DNA of 32,838 nucleotides from Deltaproteobacteria bacterium (GTDB taxonomy: Bacteria > Desulfobacterota > Binatia > Binatales > Binataceae), in the NCBI GenBank assembly GCA_021827495.1, contig JAKAVN010000022.1, forward strand, positions 1-32,838, written 5' to 3'. Below, piece by piece: positions 2,287-10,920 of this stretch. How positions within the stretch are numbered: the stretch's first letter is position 1; the number at the start of each line of letters is the position of its first letter. Under the pieces are notes generated by a model. The model did no database searches. It worked only from the letters and a program-made list of their open reading frames with translations, and was not told where the DNA came from. The position numbers were made by a program, and so were the translations under genes.

Positions 2287-3018
2287 ATGCGAGAGCGAAC
2301 GTGCGCCCTGGTGGTGGTGGGCAATGAAGTCCTGTCGGGCAAGACCCAGGACTCCAATGCGTATTTTGCGGCCCGCCAGTTGCGCGCCGTCGGCGTCGCC
2401 CTGCGGCGCATCGCGGTTATCCCTGACGAAGTCCCGTTAATCGCCGAGGAAGTCGGCTACTGCGCGCGGCGCTTCGACTTCGTTCTGACCTCGGGCGGCG
2501 TCGGCCCGACTCATGACGACGTCACGATGGACGGCGTCGCGGCGGCTTTCGGCCGCGAACTCGTAATGCATCCGGAACTCGAACGCCTCATCCGCACGCA
2601 CTTCGCCGACCGCCTAAGCGCTGCCGCACTCAAGATGGCGGTAGTGCCTGAGGGCGCCGTGCTCAATTCGACGGGCGACGTGCGCTTTCCGACCGTCCAG
2701 TTCGAGAACGTGTACATCCTGCCGGGGATCCCGCAAATCTTCGAGGCCAAGCTGGCCGCGCTGCTGGGCCGCTTCGCAACCGATCCATATTACATGCGGA
2801 CGATCTATACCTCGGCCGGCGAAGGCGCGATCACCGGGTACCTCAACCAGTGTCTTGCGCGCTACCCCGATCTTCTGCTGGGCTCTTATCCACGGGTCGG
2901 CGATCCGAATTACCGGGTGAAGCTCACGCTCGAATCCAAGGACCGTGATTATCTGGAGCGGGCCTTTGCCCATCTGATGAGTCTTTTGCCGGGTGAAGTG
3001 GTGGTGAGGACCGAATAG
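2287..3018 (+). CDS. CinA/MoaB-like molybdopterin-binding domain protein
   Basis: A 243-residue single-domain protein of the MoCF_biosynth/CinA N-terminal family. It begins with the typical strand and loop CALVVVGNEVLSGKTQDSN and has the signature TSGGVGPTHDDVT near residues 75-90, the phosphate/pterin-binding loop. VYILPGIPQIFEAKL follows later, as in CinA-type proteins. The C-terminal nicotinamide-nucleotide deamidase domain of full CinA (about 400 residues) is absent, so it is the short type often annotated 'competence/damage-inducible protein A'. The true substrate of this short type is not settled; a role in nucleotide or cofactor salvage is possible. It is preceded by a 96-base gap holding the sigma-gene hairpin and followed closely by a secreted-protein gene on the same strand. 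Confidence 0.8.
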   Translation: MRERTCALVVVGNEVLSGKTQDSNAYFAARQLRAVGVALRRIAVIPDEVPLIAEEVGYCARRFDFVLTSGGVGPTHDDVTMDGVAAAFGRELVMHPELERLIRTHFADRLSAAALKMAVVPEGAVLNSTGDVRFPTVQFENVYILPGIPQIFEAKLAALLGRFATDPYYMRTIYTSAGEGAITGYLNQCLARYPDLLLGSYPRVGDPNYRVKLTLESKDRDYLERAFAHLMSLLPGEVVVRTE

Positions 3019-3054: not shown

Positions 3055-3735
3055 ATGGCAATGAGGAAAGTTACGTGTTTGTTGGCGATGGTGGCGGCCG
3101 CGGCGATTGCGCCGCCAGCGATGGCGCAGAGCCCGAATAATACGGTGGGCGGCGCGCAGACCAACCAGGCGCAGGTTCCGCAGCCGCCTGACGACAACGT
3201 GAACTGGAAGGGCGTCGGGGTCGGCGCCGGCACCGTGGCCGGCAATCTCCTGTACGTGCCGGCCAAAATAGTCTACGGAATTCTCGGCGGAATTACCGGC
3301 GGGGCAAGCTACCTGCTCACCGGCGGTAATACGCAAACCGCCAATACCATATGGCGCAGCTCGCTCGGCGGCGACTACGTTCTCACGCCGGACATGATAA
3401 CCGGACAGCAGCCGGTCCATTTCAGCGGACCGACCATGACCCCGCCCGATCCCGCCCAGTCCACCTCGTCGTCGGCTGCGGCGGGAAACTCGGCGATGAA
3501 CTCGACGCCGATGCAGCCCGCGCCGACGACCCGGACGGCGTCGGCCGAGCTCGGCGGTTCCGTCACCAGCACGCCCATCACGGGTAATTCGACTGGCGCC
3601 GCCGCGATGCCTCAGCCGGCGGACCGCGGCACGGGGCCGCTGACCCCGGGCGCTTCGACCTCGGGCAACCGGGCCGGCCCCAGCGCGAACAGTGGCGTCG
3701 CCGCGCCGCCGCTGCCCGGCACCAGTATCGAGTGA
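3055..3735 (+). CDS. Secreted or periplasmic protein of unknown function
   Basis: A 226-residue protein with a clear Sec signal peptide: charged MAMRKV, a hydrophobic Ala/Leu core, and predicted cleavage after PAMA before QSPNN. A Shine-Dalgarno of repeated GAGGAGGAGG sits directly upstream. Residues ~50-90 form a Gly-rich hydrophobic segment (VAGNLLYVPAKIVYGILGG) that could insert in or associate with a membrane. The C-terminal ~120 residues are Ser/Thr/Pro/Gly/Ala-rich and probably disordered. No domain was recognised. It follows the CinA-like gene by 36 bases and may share its transcript. A strong hairpin follows the stop. Confidence 0.75.
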   Translation: MAMRKVTCLLAMVAAAAIAPPAMAQSPNNTVGGAQTNQAQVPQPPDDNVNWKGVGVGAGTVAGNLLYVPAKIVYGILGGITGGASYLLTGGNTQTANTIWRSSLGGDYVLTPDMITGQQPVHFSGPTMTPPDPAQSTSSSAAAGNSAMNSTPMQPAPTTRTASAELGGSVTSTPITGNSTGAAAMPQPADRGTGPLTPGASTSGNRAGPSANSGVAAPPLPGTSIE

Positions 3736-3866: not shown

Positions 3867-4217
3867 ATGAAGAAGGCGCGCTTTCTCTGGAAATCGACCT
3901 GAACCACCTGCCGCAACGCAAGAGGTTTCTTGCGTGACGAACTCCAGGTCGAACTCGACGAGCGCGACTACTCAAAGCAGCCGCTCGGCGCGGCGGAGCT
4001 CAAGCTGCTGTTTGCCGGGCGCGATCCGCGCGACTTCCTCAATCCAAAGAGCCCGGCCTTCAAGGCGCTGGGGCTCAAGGGGAGGAAATTGGCCGCCGCC
4101 GAGGCGCTGGAGCTGATGGCGCGGGAGCCGAACCTGATCAAACGCCCGCTCGTAGCCGCAGGCGGTGAGATCGTCGCGGGCTTCGACCGCGAGCGCCTGC
4201 GCGCACTGCTCTCGTAG
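3867..4217 (+). CDS. ArsC/Spx-family thiol oxidoreductase, candidate selenoprotein (in-frame TGA at 3900-3902)
   Basis: The ORF track lists only 3930-4217 from a TTG. In the same frame there is an ATG at 3867, with AAGG 6 bases upstream, giving MKKARFLWKST-[TGA]-TTCRNARGFLRDELQ. The TGA is codon 12 and falls where Spx/ArsC proteins have the first Cys of CxxC (compare Spx SCTSCRKAR), which is the catalytic Cys of ArsC. The second Cys is present (residue 15). Downstream the family pattern is complete: DERDYSKQPL, a helical region, and LIKRPLV...GFDRERLRALL, which carries the conserved Arg-Pro. The total of 116 residues is normal for the family, whereas the TTG version lacks the whole active site. 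A hairpin with GG-loop lies just after the TGA. I read this as UxxC, selenocysteine in place of the catalytic Cys; a nonsense mutation is the alternative. The LysR gene converges on it. Confidence 0.72.
3916..3935 (+). promoter_or_regulatory. Candidate bacterial SECIS element
   Basis: ACGCAAGA (3916-3923) and TCTTGCGT (3928-3935) form a perfect 8-bp stem with a GGTT loop. The stem starts 13 bases after the in-frame TGA and the loop starts 21 bases after it. Bacterial SECIS elements are stem-loops just 3' of the UGA with G at the first positions of a small apical loop, read by SelB. The codons forming the stem (GCA, AGA, GGT, TTG, CGT) are unlike the G/C-ended codons in the rest of the gene, which suggests selection on RNA structure. 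Confidence 0.65.
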
Positions 4218-4275: not shown

Positions 4276-5304
4276 CTAAGCCCGTTCAGCCCGCTCGGCC
4301 TTTTCGGCGCGTGCGGTCTTCTCCAGGCGTTCAGGCTTCTCGGCGCGCTCGGCGCGAGATTCGCCACGGCTGCTATTGCTGTCGCCGCGGTCGGCTTTTT
4401 CGGTGCCGGTCCCCGGCGAAGGGATCTTTGCCGTGGTCAATACCTCGATGAACTTGCTCACGGCGGGCGAAAGTTCCCGCCCGCGCTTGTAGATTATCGC
4501 CAGCGGCCGCGTGAACGTGCCCTCGACGAACCCCAACATCTTGAGCGAGCCCCTGGTGGTTTCGTGCTCGACCGTCGACAGCGGCACGATGGCCACGCCT
4601 TGGCCGATCTCGACCGCGCGCTTGATGGTCTCGATGTTGTCGAACTCCATCGTGTACTGGGGCTTTACGCCGTATTCGCGCAAAATGCGGTCTGACGCCT
4701 TGCGCGTGGCTATGTCGCGTTCGTAGCCGACAAACTTCTGGCCCGCCAAGTCGCTCACGCTGACCTTGGAGTGCTTGGCGAGTGGATCGTCGGGCGGCAC
4801 CACGAGTACAAGTTGGTCGTGGCGGAACGCAATCGTGACTATCTGGCTGCGCTTGGCCGGGTAAGCCACCACGCCGAGGTCAATTTTACCATCGACCAGG
4901 TCCTCGTAAATTTTGTTGGAGCGCAAGTATTCCAAGTGCACGTTTACTTGCGGATAGGTGCGCAGAAACTCGGTCAAGTAGGGCGGGAGTTCGTGCAATC
5001 CGACGCTGTAGACCGTGCCGACCCGGATCGATCCCGCGACCACTGATCCGATCTCACGCAGCCGGTTCTCCAGCTCCATGAAGCGCCGCACGATCTCCTT
5101 GCTCGAGTTATAAAGTAATTGCCCGGCCGCAGTTGGTTTGACACCCGCACGCGCCCGTTCTAACAATCGACACTCGTACTTCTCCTCCAGGCTGCGGATC
5201 TGCTGACTGACCGCCGACTGGGTGACGAAGTTTTGCGAGGCGGCATAAGAAACGCTGCCACTCTCGATGACGTCGCAGAAAACCTTCAGGGTCTCGATAT
5301 GCAT
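4276..5304 (-). CDS. LysR-family transcriptional regulator with charged repetitive C-terminal tail
   Basis: A 342-residue LysR-type regulator. The N-terminal winged helix-turn-helix covers about residues 1-61 (LKVFCDVIESGSVSYAASQ, FVTQSAVSQQIRSLEEKYE). The effector-binding domain runs from about 90 to 295 (GSIRVGTVYSVGLHELPPYL, DLGVVAYP, IKRAVEIGQGVAIVPLS). The last ~45 residues are extra: low-complexity Arg/Ala/Glu/Lys with repeated RAE/KAE units (RAEKAERAERA), not part of the normal fold. The ATG at 5304 is the natural family start. It is divergent from gcdH, with 116 bases between, the classic arrangement for a LysR protein controlling the neighbour and itself. Control of gcdH is inferred. 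The effector is unknown. Confidence 0.9.
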   Translation of the reverse strand: MHIETLKVFCDVIESGSVSYAASQNFVTQSAVSQQIRSLEEKYECRLLERARAGVKPTAAGQLLYNSSKEIVRRFMELENRLREIGSVVAGSIRVGTVYSVGLHELPPYLTEFLRTYPQVNVHLEYLRSNKIYEDLVDGKIDLGVVAYPAKRSQIVTIAFRHDQLVLVVPPDDPLAKHSKVSVSDLAGQKFVGYERDIATRKASDRILREYGVKPQYTMEFDNIETIKRAVEIGQGVAIVPLSTVEHETTRGSLKMLGFVEGTFTRPLAIIYKRGRELSPAVSKFIEVLTTAKIPSPGTGTEKADRGDSNSSRGESRAERAEKPERLEKTARAEKAERAERA

Positions 5305-5420: not shown

Positions 5421-6590
5421 ATGGCGGATTTATTGAAAGATTTGGATTTTTTCAACCTCGACGAGATGCTCGGCCACGAGGAGCGGATGGTCCGCGACAC
5501 AGTGCGCCAGTTCGTCCAACGCGAAGTGCTGCCGACCATCGAGCGCCACTTTGCCGACGAGACCTTCCCCAAAGAGCTGGTGCCGCAGATGGCCGAGCTG
5601 GGCTTCTTCGGCGCCAACCTCAAGGGCTACGGATGCGCCGGGATGAATAACATCGCCTACGGCCTCATCATGCAGGAACTCGAGGCCGGCGATTCGGGCC
5701 TGCGCTCGTTCGCTTCGGTCCAGAGCGCGCTCGCGATGTACTCGATCTATGCCTGGGGCTCCGAGGAACAGAAGCGCCGCTACCTGCCCGAGATGGCCAA
5801 GGGCAAGCTCATCGGATGCTTCGGGCTGACCGAGCCCGACCATGGTTCCGACCCGGGCGGGATGGAGACGCGGGCGCGGCGCGACGGCGATGGATGGGTG
5901 CTCAACGGGACCAAGCGCTGGATCACCAACGGCTCGATCGCCGACCTCGCGGTAGTGTATGCCAAGGTCCCCGAGGGGATCACCGGCTTCCTGGTCGAGC
6001 GCGGCACGCCGGGCTTCACCACCCGCGACATCCACGGCAAGTTTTCGATGCGCGCGTCGATAACGTCGGAACTGATCTTCGAGGACGTCCGGCTGGACGA
6101 CAACGCGCGGCTGCCCGAGGCGCGCGGACTGCGCGCGCCGCTCTCATGCCTGACCCAGGCGCGCTACGGGATCTCATGGGGCGTGATCGGCGCCGCCCGC
6201 AGTTGCTACCATTGCGCGCTGGACTACACCAAGGAGCGCAAGCAGTTTGCGCGTCCGCTGGCCGGCTACCAGCTCGTCCAGAACAAGCTGGTGACGATGC
6301 TGACCGAGATCACCAAAGCGCAGTTGGTATGTCTTAGGCTGGGGCAGCTCAAGGACGCGAACAAGATGCGTCCCGAGCAGGTCTCGTTCGCCAAGCGTAA
6401 CAACGTCGGCATGGCGCTGGAGATCGCGCGGTTGGCGCGTGACATGCTGGGGGCCAACGGGATCGTCAACGAGTACCCGGTCATCCGCCACATGCTGAAC
6501 CTCGAGACGGTGAATACTTACGAAGGCGCTTTCGACGTCCAGACGCTGGTGCTGGGACGCGACATCACTGGCCTCAGCGCCTTCGAGTGA
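5421..6590 (+). CDS. gcdH: Glutaryl-CoA dehydrogenase
   Basis: A 389-residue acyl-CoA dehydrogenase-family flavoenzyme. The sequence follows mitochondrial glutaryl-CoA dehydrogenase closely: DSGLRSFASVQSALAMYSIY, LIGCFGLTEPDHGSDPGGME, LNGTKRWITNGSIADL, GKFSMRAS, ARYGISWGVIGAA, RNNVGMALEIARLARDMLG and NTYEGAFDVQTLVLGR. The catalytic base corresponds to Glu368 (YEG). Arg95 and Ser99 match the residues that bind the glutaryl gamma-carboxylate in the human enzyme, so the decarboxylating reaction glutaryl-CoA to crotonyl-CoA is likely. This reaction acts in lysine, tryptophan and aromatic-compound breakdown and passes electrons to ETF. AGGAG precedes the ATG. A LysR gene is divergent; cvpA follows after 19 bases and may be cotranscribed. 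Confidence 0.92.
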   Translation: MADLLKDLDFFNLDEMLGHEERMVRDTVRQFVQREVLPTIERHFADETFPKELVPQMAELGFFGANLKGYGCAGMNNIAYGLIMQELEAGDSGLRSFASVQSALAMYSIYAWGSEEQKRRYLPEMAKGKLIGCFGLTEPDHGSDPGGMETRARRDGDGWVLNGTKRWITNGSIADLAVVYAKVPEGITGFLVERGTPGFTTRDIHGKFSMRASITSELIFEDVRLDDNARLPEARGLRAPLSCLTQARYGISWGVIGAARSCYHCALDYTKERKQFARPLAGYQLVQNKLVTMLTEITKAQLVCLRLGQLKDANKMRPEQVSFAKRNNVGMALEIARLARDMLGANGIVNEYPVIRHMLNLETVNTYEGAFDVQTLVLGRDITGLSAFE

Positions 6591-7542: not shown

Positions 7543-7755
7543 CGGAACTTTACTCCTTACCGTTACGTTACAGTTTAAAGCTAGGGACGCCCAGCCGCAC
7601 AGTCAAGGCGATTGACGACCATCGGCCGGAGAGATTCTTACGTTACCACAGGCGTTTTCGATACGGCCGGCATCCTCGATACGGCCACAGACTCACGTTT
7701 GGGCTGGCCGGGCCAGTTGCGATTCCCAGGCTTGCGGTTGACACCTCGCGATTGC

Positions 7756-7792
7756 GGAGCATTCAATCATCGCAGGGGAGCATTCAATCATC
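7756..7792. repeat. 16-bp direct repeat upstream of the redoxin start
   Basis: GGAGCATTCAATCATC occurs at 7756-7771 and again, identically, at 7777-7792, a 21-base period ending 5 bases before the preferred ATG at 7798. It may be a local duplication or a pair of protein-binding sites. The second copy occupies the ribosome-binding region. Confidence 0.7.
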
Positions 7793-7797
7793 CCATT

Positions 7798-8940
7798 ATG
7801 GACCGATCGAAAGGGACTCTACAGTGGCGCCGATTGCGCCGGTTGCGCGTGGCGGCCGCCATCCTCGCCGTCGCGATCATTGTGGCGGGTGGCTCGGCGG
7901 CGCTGCGCGCCGAGATCGAGCGAATCGGTGCGCCGGCGCCCGACTTCAGTTGTGCGCCATGTCTTAACCACCAACCGTTCAAGCTGAGCGACTTGCGCGG
8001 CAAAGTGGTGCTGGTCGATTTCTGGGAGTACACCTGCATCAACTGCATCCGCACCTTTCCCTACCTGCGGCGTTGGGACAAGCTCTACCGGCCGCTGGGA
8101 CTGGTGATCGTCGGCGTACATGCGCCGGAGTTCGAGTTCGCCAAGAATCCCAAGCTGGTCGCCGACGCCACCAGGCGCTTCGGTTTCGATTTTCCGGTCG
8201 CCATCGATAGCGACTACAAGATCTGGTACGCCTTCCACAACGAGGCTTGGCCGGCCGATTATCTGATCGACAAGGACGGCAACGTCGCCTACCTGCACAT
8301 CGGCGAGGGCGAGTACGGCGACTTCGAACGGAAGATTCAGGAGTTGCTCAAACAGGCCAATCCCAAGCTCAACTTCAACCAGCCCAAGTATAAAATTCCG
8401 GGCGACGAAAATGTCGAACTCCACGGCGGCGTCTGTATGCGGGCTACGCCGGAGACTTATCTCGGCTTCGCACGCAGCATCAATATCGCCAATCCCGGCG
8501 GTGAGGACCGCACCCGCCAGACCGTTTACGTGGCGCCGGCCGGCATCCCACTCGACGATTTTGCGCTCAACGGACAGTGGCTCGCGGCGGCCGAGTACGT
8601 GCATCACGCCATCGGCGCCAAGCCGCCCGGCGATTCGGTCGAACTGCACTACAGCGCCAAGTCGGTCTACTTGGTGGCCGGGTCGGATGATGCGACCCCC
8701 CGGCGGCTTTACCTGACGCAGGACGGTAAGCCACTACCCAGGCAAGCCTGGGGCGTCGACGTGCGGGCCGCCAGCGGCGGGCGGACCTACGTCGAGCTCG
8801 GCGGCAAGCGGATGTATTATCTCGTGAACAACCGCGAGTTCGGCGGCCATCTGCTGCAGCTCTACGCACTGGACCCGGGCCTTTCGCTCTATTCATTCAC
8901 CTTCGGCAACAACTGCGAGAACAAGTTCGCCCATCGCTGA
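7798..8940 (+). CDS. Membrane-anchored DipZ-type thioredoxin-like protein
   Basis: A 380-residue protein from the ATG at 7798 (the track's TTG at 7612 adds 62 residues with no family character). Basic residues RRLRRLRVAA and a hydrophobic stretch (residues 18-34) form an N-terminal anchor or signal. The TlpA/AhpC-like domain follows: KLSDLRGKVVLVDFWEYTCINCIRTFPYL, with redox pair Cys80/Cys83 in a CINC motif typical of DipZ. The last ~150 residues match the DipZ C-terminal domain, with ETYLGFARS, FALNGQWLAAAEYV and LSLYSFTFG. The DsbD-like transmembrane electron-transfer domain of full DipZ is absent, so its electron source must be another protein. An extra CAPC pair (Cys52/Cys55) precedes the fold. 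It likely acts in extracytoplasmic disulfide exchange. Confidence 0.82.
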   Translation: MDRSKGTLQWRRLRRLRVAAAILAVAIIVAGGSAALRAEIERIGAPAPDFSCAPCLNHQPFKLSDLRGKVVLVDFWEYTCINCIRTFPYLRRWDKLYRPLGLVIVGVHAPEFEFAKNPKLVADATRRFGFDFPVAIDSDYKIWYAFHNEAWPADYLIDKDGNVAYLHIGEGEYGDFERKIQELLKQANPKLNFNQPKYKIPGDENVELHGGVCMRATPETYLGFARSINIANPGGEDRTRQTVYVAPAGIPLDDFALNGQWLAAAEYVHHAIGAKPPGDSVELHYSAKSVYLVAGSDDATPRRLYLTQDGKPLPRQAWGVDVRAASGGRTYVELGGKRMYYLVNNREFGGHLLQLYALDPGLSLYSFTFGNNCENKFAHR

Positions 8941-9789: not shown

Positions 9790-10920
9790 ATGAAAGCCGC
9801 CGTGTTCTATGGTCCAAAGCAGCCGTTGGTTATCGAAGACGTCGAGATCGACAAGCCCCTCGACCGCGAAGTCCTCCTGCGCACCGTCGCCAGCGGCGTT
9901 TGCCACAGCGACCTTCATTTTGTCGATGGCTACTACTCCTTTCCCGCGCCCGCCGTCCTCGGCCACGAAGCCGCCGGAATCGTCGAAGCGGTGGGCAAGG
10001 CCGTGGACTACGTGAAGCCCGGCGACCACGTCATCTGCTGCCTGTCGGTCTTCTGCGGCTATTGCGACGACTGCATGTCGGGCCATCCCAACCGCTGCAC
10101 CAACCGCGCGGCGACGCAGCGGCGCAAGGGCGAGAAGCCGCGCCTTTCGTTCAAGGGCCAGCCGCTGCGCCAGTTTGCCGACCTCTCGACCTACGCCGAG
10201 AAGATGCTGGTGCATGAAAACGCGCTGGTGAAGATCGGCAACGACATGCCACTGGACCGCGCCGCGCTCATCGGGTGCGGCGTTACCACCGGGGTGGGCG
10301 CCGTGCTCAACACCGCGCGCATCGAGCCCGGTTCGACCGTTGCGGTCTTTGGCTGCGGCGGCGTCGGCCTAGCGGCGATCCAGGGCGCACGGATCGCCGG
10401 CGCCCGCATGATCATCGCGGTCGACCAGTTCGAATCGAAACTCGCGCTGGCGCGGCGGCTCGGCGCGACCCATACCGTGGACTCTTCCCATACCGACGCG
10501 GTCAAGGCGATCCGTGAGCTGGCAAGTCCGAGCCAGACGTCCGATCGGGCCGGCGCGGGCCGCGGCGCCAACGGCGGCGTCGACTATGCCTTCGAAGCCG
10601 TGGGAATAAAAAAACTTGCCGAGGACTGCTTCGAGTGCATCAAGCCGGGCGGCACCGCAACGATTATCGGCATGATCCCGGTCGGCCAGAAGGTCGAGCT
10701 CGAGGGGTCGAAGTTTCTCACCGAGCGCAAAATCCAGGGCACCAACATGGGCTCCAACCGCTTTCGCATCGACATGCTGCGCTACATCGACTTCTACCAG
10801 CAGGGCCGCCTCAACCTCGACGATATGATCACACGCCGCGGCAAGCTCGAGGACGTCAACGAGGCGTTCCGCGCGATGAAGGCCGGCGAGGTCGCCCGCA
10901 CGGTGTTGATGTTCGAGTGA
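9790..10920 (+). CDS. Zinc-dependent alcohol dehydrogenase (MDR family)
   Basis: A 376-residue medium-chain dehydrogenase with two zinc sites. Catalytic zinc ligands are Cys38 (GVCHSDLH), His59/Glu60 (LGHEAAG) and Cys163 (IGCGVTTG). The structural zinc cysteines are 89, 92, 95 and 103 (CGYCDDCMSGHPNRC). The Rossmann fold carries GCGGVGLAA, and Asp212 after the next strand (IIAVD) indicates NAD+ rather than NADP+. The architecture is closest to class III/NDMA-dependent-type dehydrogenases. A short Ser/Gly-rich insertion (SPSQTSDRAGAGRGANGG) interrupts the cofactor domain. It oxidises an alcohol or a thiol-aldehyde adduct; the exact substrate cannot be read from sequence. It stands alone as a transcription unit, with degraded toxin-antitoxin genes after it. 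Confidence 0.9.
   Translation: MKAAVFYGPKQPLVIEDVEIDKPLDREVLLRTVASGVCHSDLHFVDGYYSFPAPAVLGHEAAGIVEAVGKAVDYVKPGDHVICCLSVFCGYCDDCMSGHPNRCTNRAATQRRKGEKPRLSFKGQPLRQFADLSTYAEKMLVHENALVKIGNDMPLDRAALIGCGVTTGVGAVLNTARIEPGSTVAVFGCGGVGLAAIQGARIAGARMIIAVDQFESKLALARRLGATHTVDSSHTDAVKAIRELASPSQTSDRAGAGRGANGGVDYAFEAVGIKKLAEDCFECIKPGGTATIIGMIPVGQKVELEGSKFLTERKIQGTNMGSNRFRIDMLRYIDFYQQGRLNLDDMITRRGKLEDVNEAFRAMKAGEVARTVLMFE

Follow-up and report, generated by a model that had tools for sequence, protein, structure and literature searches.

The window analysed here, a stretch of 32,838 nucleotides, carries a short gene whose reading frame is interrupted by one TGA. The gene, the elements within it and its closest neighbours are as follows:

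2287-3018, forward strand: CinA/MoCF-type upstream gene, a conserved neighbour
3055-3735, forward strand: uncharacterised upstream protein, a conserved neighbour with a normal TGA stop
3867-4217, forward strand: predicted selenoprotein coding sequence of ArsC/Spx/YffB fold, 116 residues, from the ATG at 3867 to the stop TAG at 4215-4217 (PF03960, AlphaFold and PDB folds)
3900-3902, forward strand: in-frame TGA, predicted to encode selenocysteine (Sec) as residue 12, the first position of U-x-x-C (TGA or TGC/TGT in all orthologues; Sec machinery present)
3909-3911, forward strand: TGC codon of the putative resolving Cys15 of U-x-x-C (invariant in the alignment and in all 46 sequences of the residue comparison)
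3916-3935, forward strand: bacterial SECIS-type (bSECIS) hairpin, stem 3916-3923 with 3928-3935 (8 Watson-Crick pairs), loop GGUU at 3924-3927
3921-3923, forward strand: AGA codon for Arg19, apparently demanded by the hairpin; AGA is rare in the genome
4276-5304, reverse strand: convergent LysR-family regulator (PF00126/PF03466), a conserved neighbour in many relatives

Translation of 3867-4217 with TGA read as U gives a protein that begins MKKARFLWKSTUTTCRNARGFLRDELQVELDERDYSKQPLGAAELK, and it reproduces the start, the TGA, the stop and the length of 116 residues given in the initial annotation. It had been claimed there that ordinary gene calling would yield a truncated protein and that the frame from 3930 has no active site, and both points hold: the list of open reading frames, compiled without recoding, offers TTG 3930 as the sole start for this gene (3930-4217), and the product from that start loses strand 1 together with both active-site residues. 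Across 20 Sec genomes, pooled pN/pS was 0.19 for codons 2-11, which precede the TGA, versus 0.35 for codons 13-115, so constraint on the part missing from the truncated protein is no weaker than on the remainder. This ratio indicates purifying selection on the codons 5′ of the TGA.

A census across the genome's own taxonomic family detected the gene in 40 of 41 genomes, the remaining one (G426) being matched only via its ArsC paralogue. Codon 12, read directly in these 40 orthologues, is TGA in 28, TGC in 11 and TGT in one, with no other codon; Cys and Sec forms share descent, and 28 against 12 does not amount to 40 independent observations. All such counts come from the census only, as the genome_contigs and whole-genome collections overlap (L014 and L043, for example, are one contig). 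The 28 TGA genomes have diverged to about 58% protein identity, and the matched stretch of every TGA-bearing orthologue is free of a second in-frame stop. The earlier proposal that the TGA falls on the first Cys of a CxxC motif in an otherwise intact gene is therefore borne out, since orthologues have TGA, TGC or TGT exactly there and stops nowhere else, the remaining Cys15 is invariant and PF03960 is matched. Close relatives aligned to the query likewise have TGA or TGC on residue 12. A scan with one genome per species returned 23 relatives, mostly deltaproteobacterial or Ca. Binataceae MAGs and two of them acidobacterial; TGA stands at this codon in homologues from two acidobacterial MAGs as well. 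TGA-interrupted homologues scoring 87-105 bits were also found in seven genomes of other families in a 395-genome sample of the phylum. On the protein tree, no fewer than four switches between Sec and Cys are required, and many of the deep branches are weakly supported. Distant TGA-bearing homologues at about 40% identity occur at L050-L056 (families f36, f70 and f106 of the same phylum), and the hairpin loop was displaced by 1-2 nt in the four of these that were examined.

The hairpin downstream of the TGA, ACGCAAGA-GGUU-UCUUGCGU, occupies nucleotides 17-36 counted from the TGA. According to a 2026 review (PMC13188914), bSECIS elements have a loop of 3-9 nt with G in the first two loop positions, a stem of 4-16 bp, a distance of 16-37 nt from the UGA and an MFE of at most -7.5 kcal/mol. 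With its GGUU loop, 8 bp, TGA-to-loop gap of 21 nt and MFE of -13.1 kcal/mol (30-nt core), the window hairpin lies within all of these limits. Given the protein and the codon usage of the window, the probability that these 8 pairs arise by chance in the same columns is 2.5e-5. Taken by itself, the window sequence does not fold with unusual energy compared with synonymous shuffles (p about 0.09), and since folding energy fails to separate the window from the shuffles, the case for the hairpin rests on its conserved position, loop, sequence and codons. A contiguous stem of at least 7 pairs is found in 30 of 34 TGA genes versus 1 of 12 Cys genes, the four TGA genes with shorter or interrupted contiguous stems being those of G304, G403, G406 and G250. 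Three of the stem pairs show two-sided changes across 30 TGA sequences (C-G to A-U, A-U to C-G and G-C to A-U), and such changes exceed those of nearly all shuffles. An Rfam scan of the window gave no match.

The codon for Arg19 varies with the same division. AGA makes up 1.7% of Arg codons in the window genes, and it encodes Arg19 in 22 of 28 Sec genes versus 1 of 12 Cys genes; for AGA or AGG together the figures are 24 of 28 versus 1 of 12 (Fisher p 6e-6, uncorrected for relatedness). These codon patterns argue that the rare AGA is dictated by the hairpin; Cys versions of the gene mostly lose both.

The genome encodes the whole Sec apparatus, in agreement with what the initial annotation would expect of a selenoprotein: a tRNA-Sec of 68.6 bits with anticodon UCA (ARAGORN tRNA-SeC, TCA), and profile matches to SelB (381 bits), SelA (552 bits) and SelD (382 bits). 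The SelD gene (L038, G000:C51:1895-2821) is itself broken by an in-frame TGA, in the motif CKAAG-U-AGKLG, and SelD is probably a selenoprotein too. Across the family, SelB was above cut-off in 37 of 41 genomes. Of the four others, G396 (85% complete) and G425 (53% complete) have TGA at codon 12 and retain SelA, while G221 (97% complete) and G264 (96% complete) have TGC at codon 12 and no SelA. The best tRNA-Sec scores in the latter two, 50.1 bits in G221 and 43.7 bits in G264, are at the level of the 48.9 bits that a tRNA-Ser of the genome analysed here reaches as a cross-match to the tRNA-Sec model, so neither contains a credible tRNA-Sec. By these profile scores, two relatives that have Cys at codon 12 appear to lack the Sec system. 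The loss in G221 and G264 appears recent, their close relatives G149 and G398 retaining SelA, SelB and tRNA-Sec.

With an in-frame TGA that aligns with the Cys of homologues, a hairpin within the bSECIS limits, and the four components of the machinery encoded in the same genome, we are highly confident, on genomic grounds, that the TGA at 3900-3902 is read as Sec in the window protein. If it were instead a true stop, the locus would be a pseudogene or would produce only the truncated protein from TTG 3930, and the ORF finder does call only 3930-4217. We consider this very improbable, because the TGA is kept at one codon in 28 genomes without another stop or frameshift, because the codons before it are under purifying selection, and because the truncated product would be deprived of the first strand and the active site. 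The window comes from a fragmented assembly of 264 contigs, which could raise the suspicion, voiced in the initial annotation, that resequencing might give TGC or TGT at this position; however, the same TGA recurs with a co-conserved hairpin in dozens of assemblies made independently in different projects, which excludes a sequencing or assembly error for practical purposes. Genome-wide recoding of TGA, to Trp or Gly for instance, is an equally negligible possibility: we found no support for such recoding, TGA is the stop codon of several Pfam-supported window genes (5421-6590 and 9790-10920 among them), the alternative codons at the site are those of Cys only, and the Sec machinery is complete.

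The window protein belongs to the ArsC/Spx superfamily by both profile and fold. With Cys substituted for U, residues 9-113 match PF03960 (ArsC) at 59.2 bits (E=5e-16), above the gathering cut-off of 24, and AlphaFold predicts a confident ArsC-type fold (pLDDT 94.5) in which residue 12 lies just before a helix spanning 13-25. Among PDB structures, those most similar in fold are Spx, YffB and related ArsC-like proteins, and Spx also gives the best profile matches. None of the NCBIfam models is passed by the protein: the best, TIGR01617 (Spx/MgsR type), scores 63.7 bits, under its cut-off of 75.05, and TIGR00014 (glutaredoxin-type arsenate reductase) scores 36.7 bits versus 106. Alignments of relatives show Cys15, Arg16, Arg93 and Pro94 to be invariant.

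The genome also encodes a second protein of this fold with a TGA in frame:

G000:C125:7153-7500 (L109 has the same coordinates), reverse strand: ArsC-fold paralogue with an in-frame TGA at the attacking residue (UxxS), in the motif NPG-U-GNSRGAL

Both proteins have the ArsC fold with TGA at the attacking residue, but the paralogue belongs to a different subfamily, is closer to true arsenate reductases and matches the known UxxS selenoprotein class. It scores 101.7 bits against TIGR00014 (cut-off 106) and matches the arsenate reductase ArsC of plasmid R773 (PDB 1jzw) with E=2.5e-16. The arsenate-binding arginines of ArsC R773 are R60, R94 and R107; R107 is kept in the paralogue, and R60 is kept in the phmmer alignment but not in the MAFFT alignment. 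Judged by these residues, the paralogue would fit the role of an arsenate reductase better than the window protein does, and no arsenic genes were detected by Pfam on the contig around it. Its orthologues have TGA in 16 of 26 family genomes and Cys in 10 of 26. Three genomes (G404, G402 and G121) combine Cys in the window-type protein with Sec in the UxxS paralogue, which may be one reason why they keep the Sec system.

The reading we favour, and think probably correct, is that the window protein is a YffB/Spx-like oxidoreductase working through Sec12 and Cys15, with its substrate and electron donor suggested by fold and motif. The initial annotation had instead named arsenate as a possible substrate, which would make the protein a Sec-containing arsenate reductase, that is, ArsC proper. 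Membership of PF03960 and retention of the attacking residue and of the R94-P95 pair speak for that assignment. We nevertheless regard it as unlikely: only R94 is kept among the three arginines, R60 being replaced by Asn and R107 by Phe, the TIGR00014 score is far from its cut-off, and the second Sec protein is far more ArsC-like. With two of the three arginines replaced and a separate Sec-containing ArsC encoded in the genome, arsenate is unlikely to be the substrate. Because Spx-type regulators head both the family and the PDB profile matches, the protein could conceivably serve as a Sec-based, Spx-like redox switch and bind RNA polymerase, although we hold this to be quite doubtful; if true, a Sec-Cys bond rather than a disulfide would control transcription.

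We propose that the UGA at 3900 is decoded as Sec by SelB and tRNA-Sec, steered by the hairpin within the gene. In the favoured oxidoreductase, Sec12 would be the attacking residue, placed at the N terminus of helix 1, and Cys15 would resolve it through a presumed Sec-Cys (selenylsulfide) bond. The product would be a small cytosolic oxidoreductase that may reduce a disulfide or some other oxidised substrate, glutathione/glutaredoxin or thioredoxin being the possible source of electrons.

Proteins of this general kind have been described before. A list of 2006 already included ‘ArsC-like’ selenoproteins (PMC1794560), and the Global Ocean Sampling data yielded ‘Arsenate reductase (ArsC) 1’ with UxxS and ‘Arsenate reductase 2’ with UxxC, cd03032 (PMC2398784); both classes appear in reviews of 2022 and 2026 (PMC9312934, PMC13188914), the UxxC class as NF041106. 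The window protein has in common with ‘Arsenate reductase 2’ and the ‘ArsC-like’ proteins the ArsC/Spx fold, Sec as the first residue of UxxC, the existence of Cys homologues and a prediction based on sequence; the published cases come from marine metagenomes and deltaproteobacteria, and the likeness is by description only. NF041106 (ArsC_rel_Se_1) is also an ArsC-like UxxC Sec family, but the window protein lies outside this subfamily, scoring 17.3 bits versus the curated cut-off of 85. YffB (PDB 1rw1, PA3664) and Spx (PDB 1z3e) share its fold (TM about 0.85), C-x-x-C spacing and RP motif, whereas both have Cys where the window protein has Sec, and identity in structural alignments is 30% to YffB and 22% to Spx. 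The glutaredoxin-type ArsC of R773 shares the Pfam family, the position of the attacking residue and R94, in contrast to its CxxS motif and to the two arginines that are replaced in the window protein.

Sec-containing ArsC-like proteins have thus been known since 2006-2008, and the window protein adds a member in a lineage for which our searches of the open-access literature returned no report of a selenoprotein; those for Binatota or Ca. Binatus gave a single paper, in which the word stands in a reference title. To the uncultured Candidatus Binataceae of soil it adds a selenoprotein that ordinary gene calling misses and that is above no NCBIfam cut-off. More broadly, the family offers a natural experiment: the gene occurs as a Sec form or a Cys form in comparable genomic settings, the Sec form is accompanied by the hairpin and the rare codon, and the Cys form is found in two genomes that appear to have lost the entire Sec system. 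Such a family should be well suited to studying why Sec is retained or lost at a single catalytic site.

The order sigma factor, CinA-like protein, uncharacterised protein, selenoprotein, LysR regulator and acyl-CoA dehydrogenase is conserved in many relatives; this neighbourhood does not point to arsenic metabolism and names no substrate. The LysR gene at 4276-5304 was considered as a selenium regulator and rejected: its best NCBIfam match, NF040786 (selenium metabolism-associated LysR), is below cut-off at 193.6 bits versus 250, and the LysR gene also adjoins the Cys gene of L020, the same contig as one of genome G221, a genome without a Sec system. For these two reasons we claim no link between the LysR gene and the selenoprotein. 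Further along the window, at 7612-8940 on the forward strand, a ResA-like redoxin is fused to a thioredoxin-like C-terminal domain (PF17991) and weakly matches the selenoprotein-related model NF041054.
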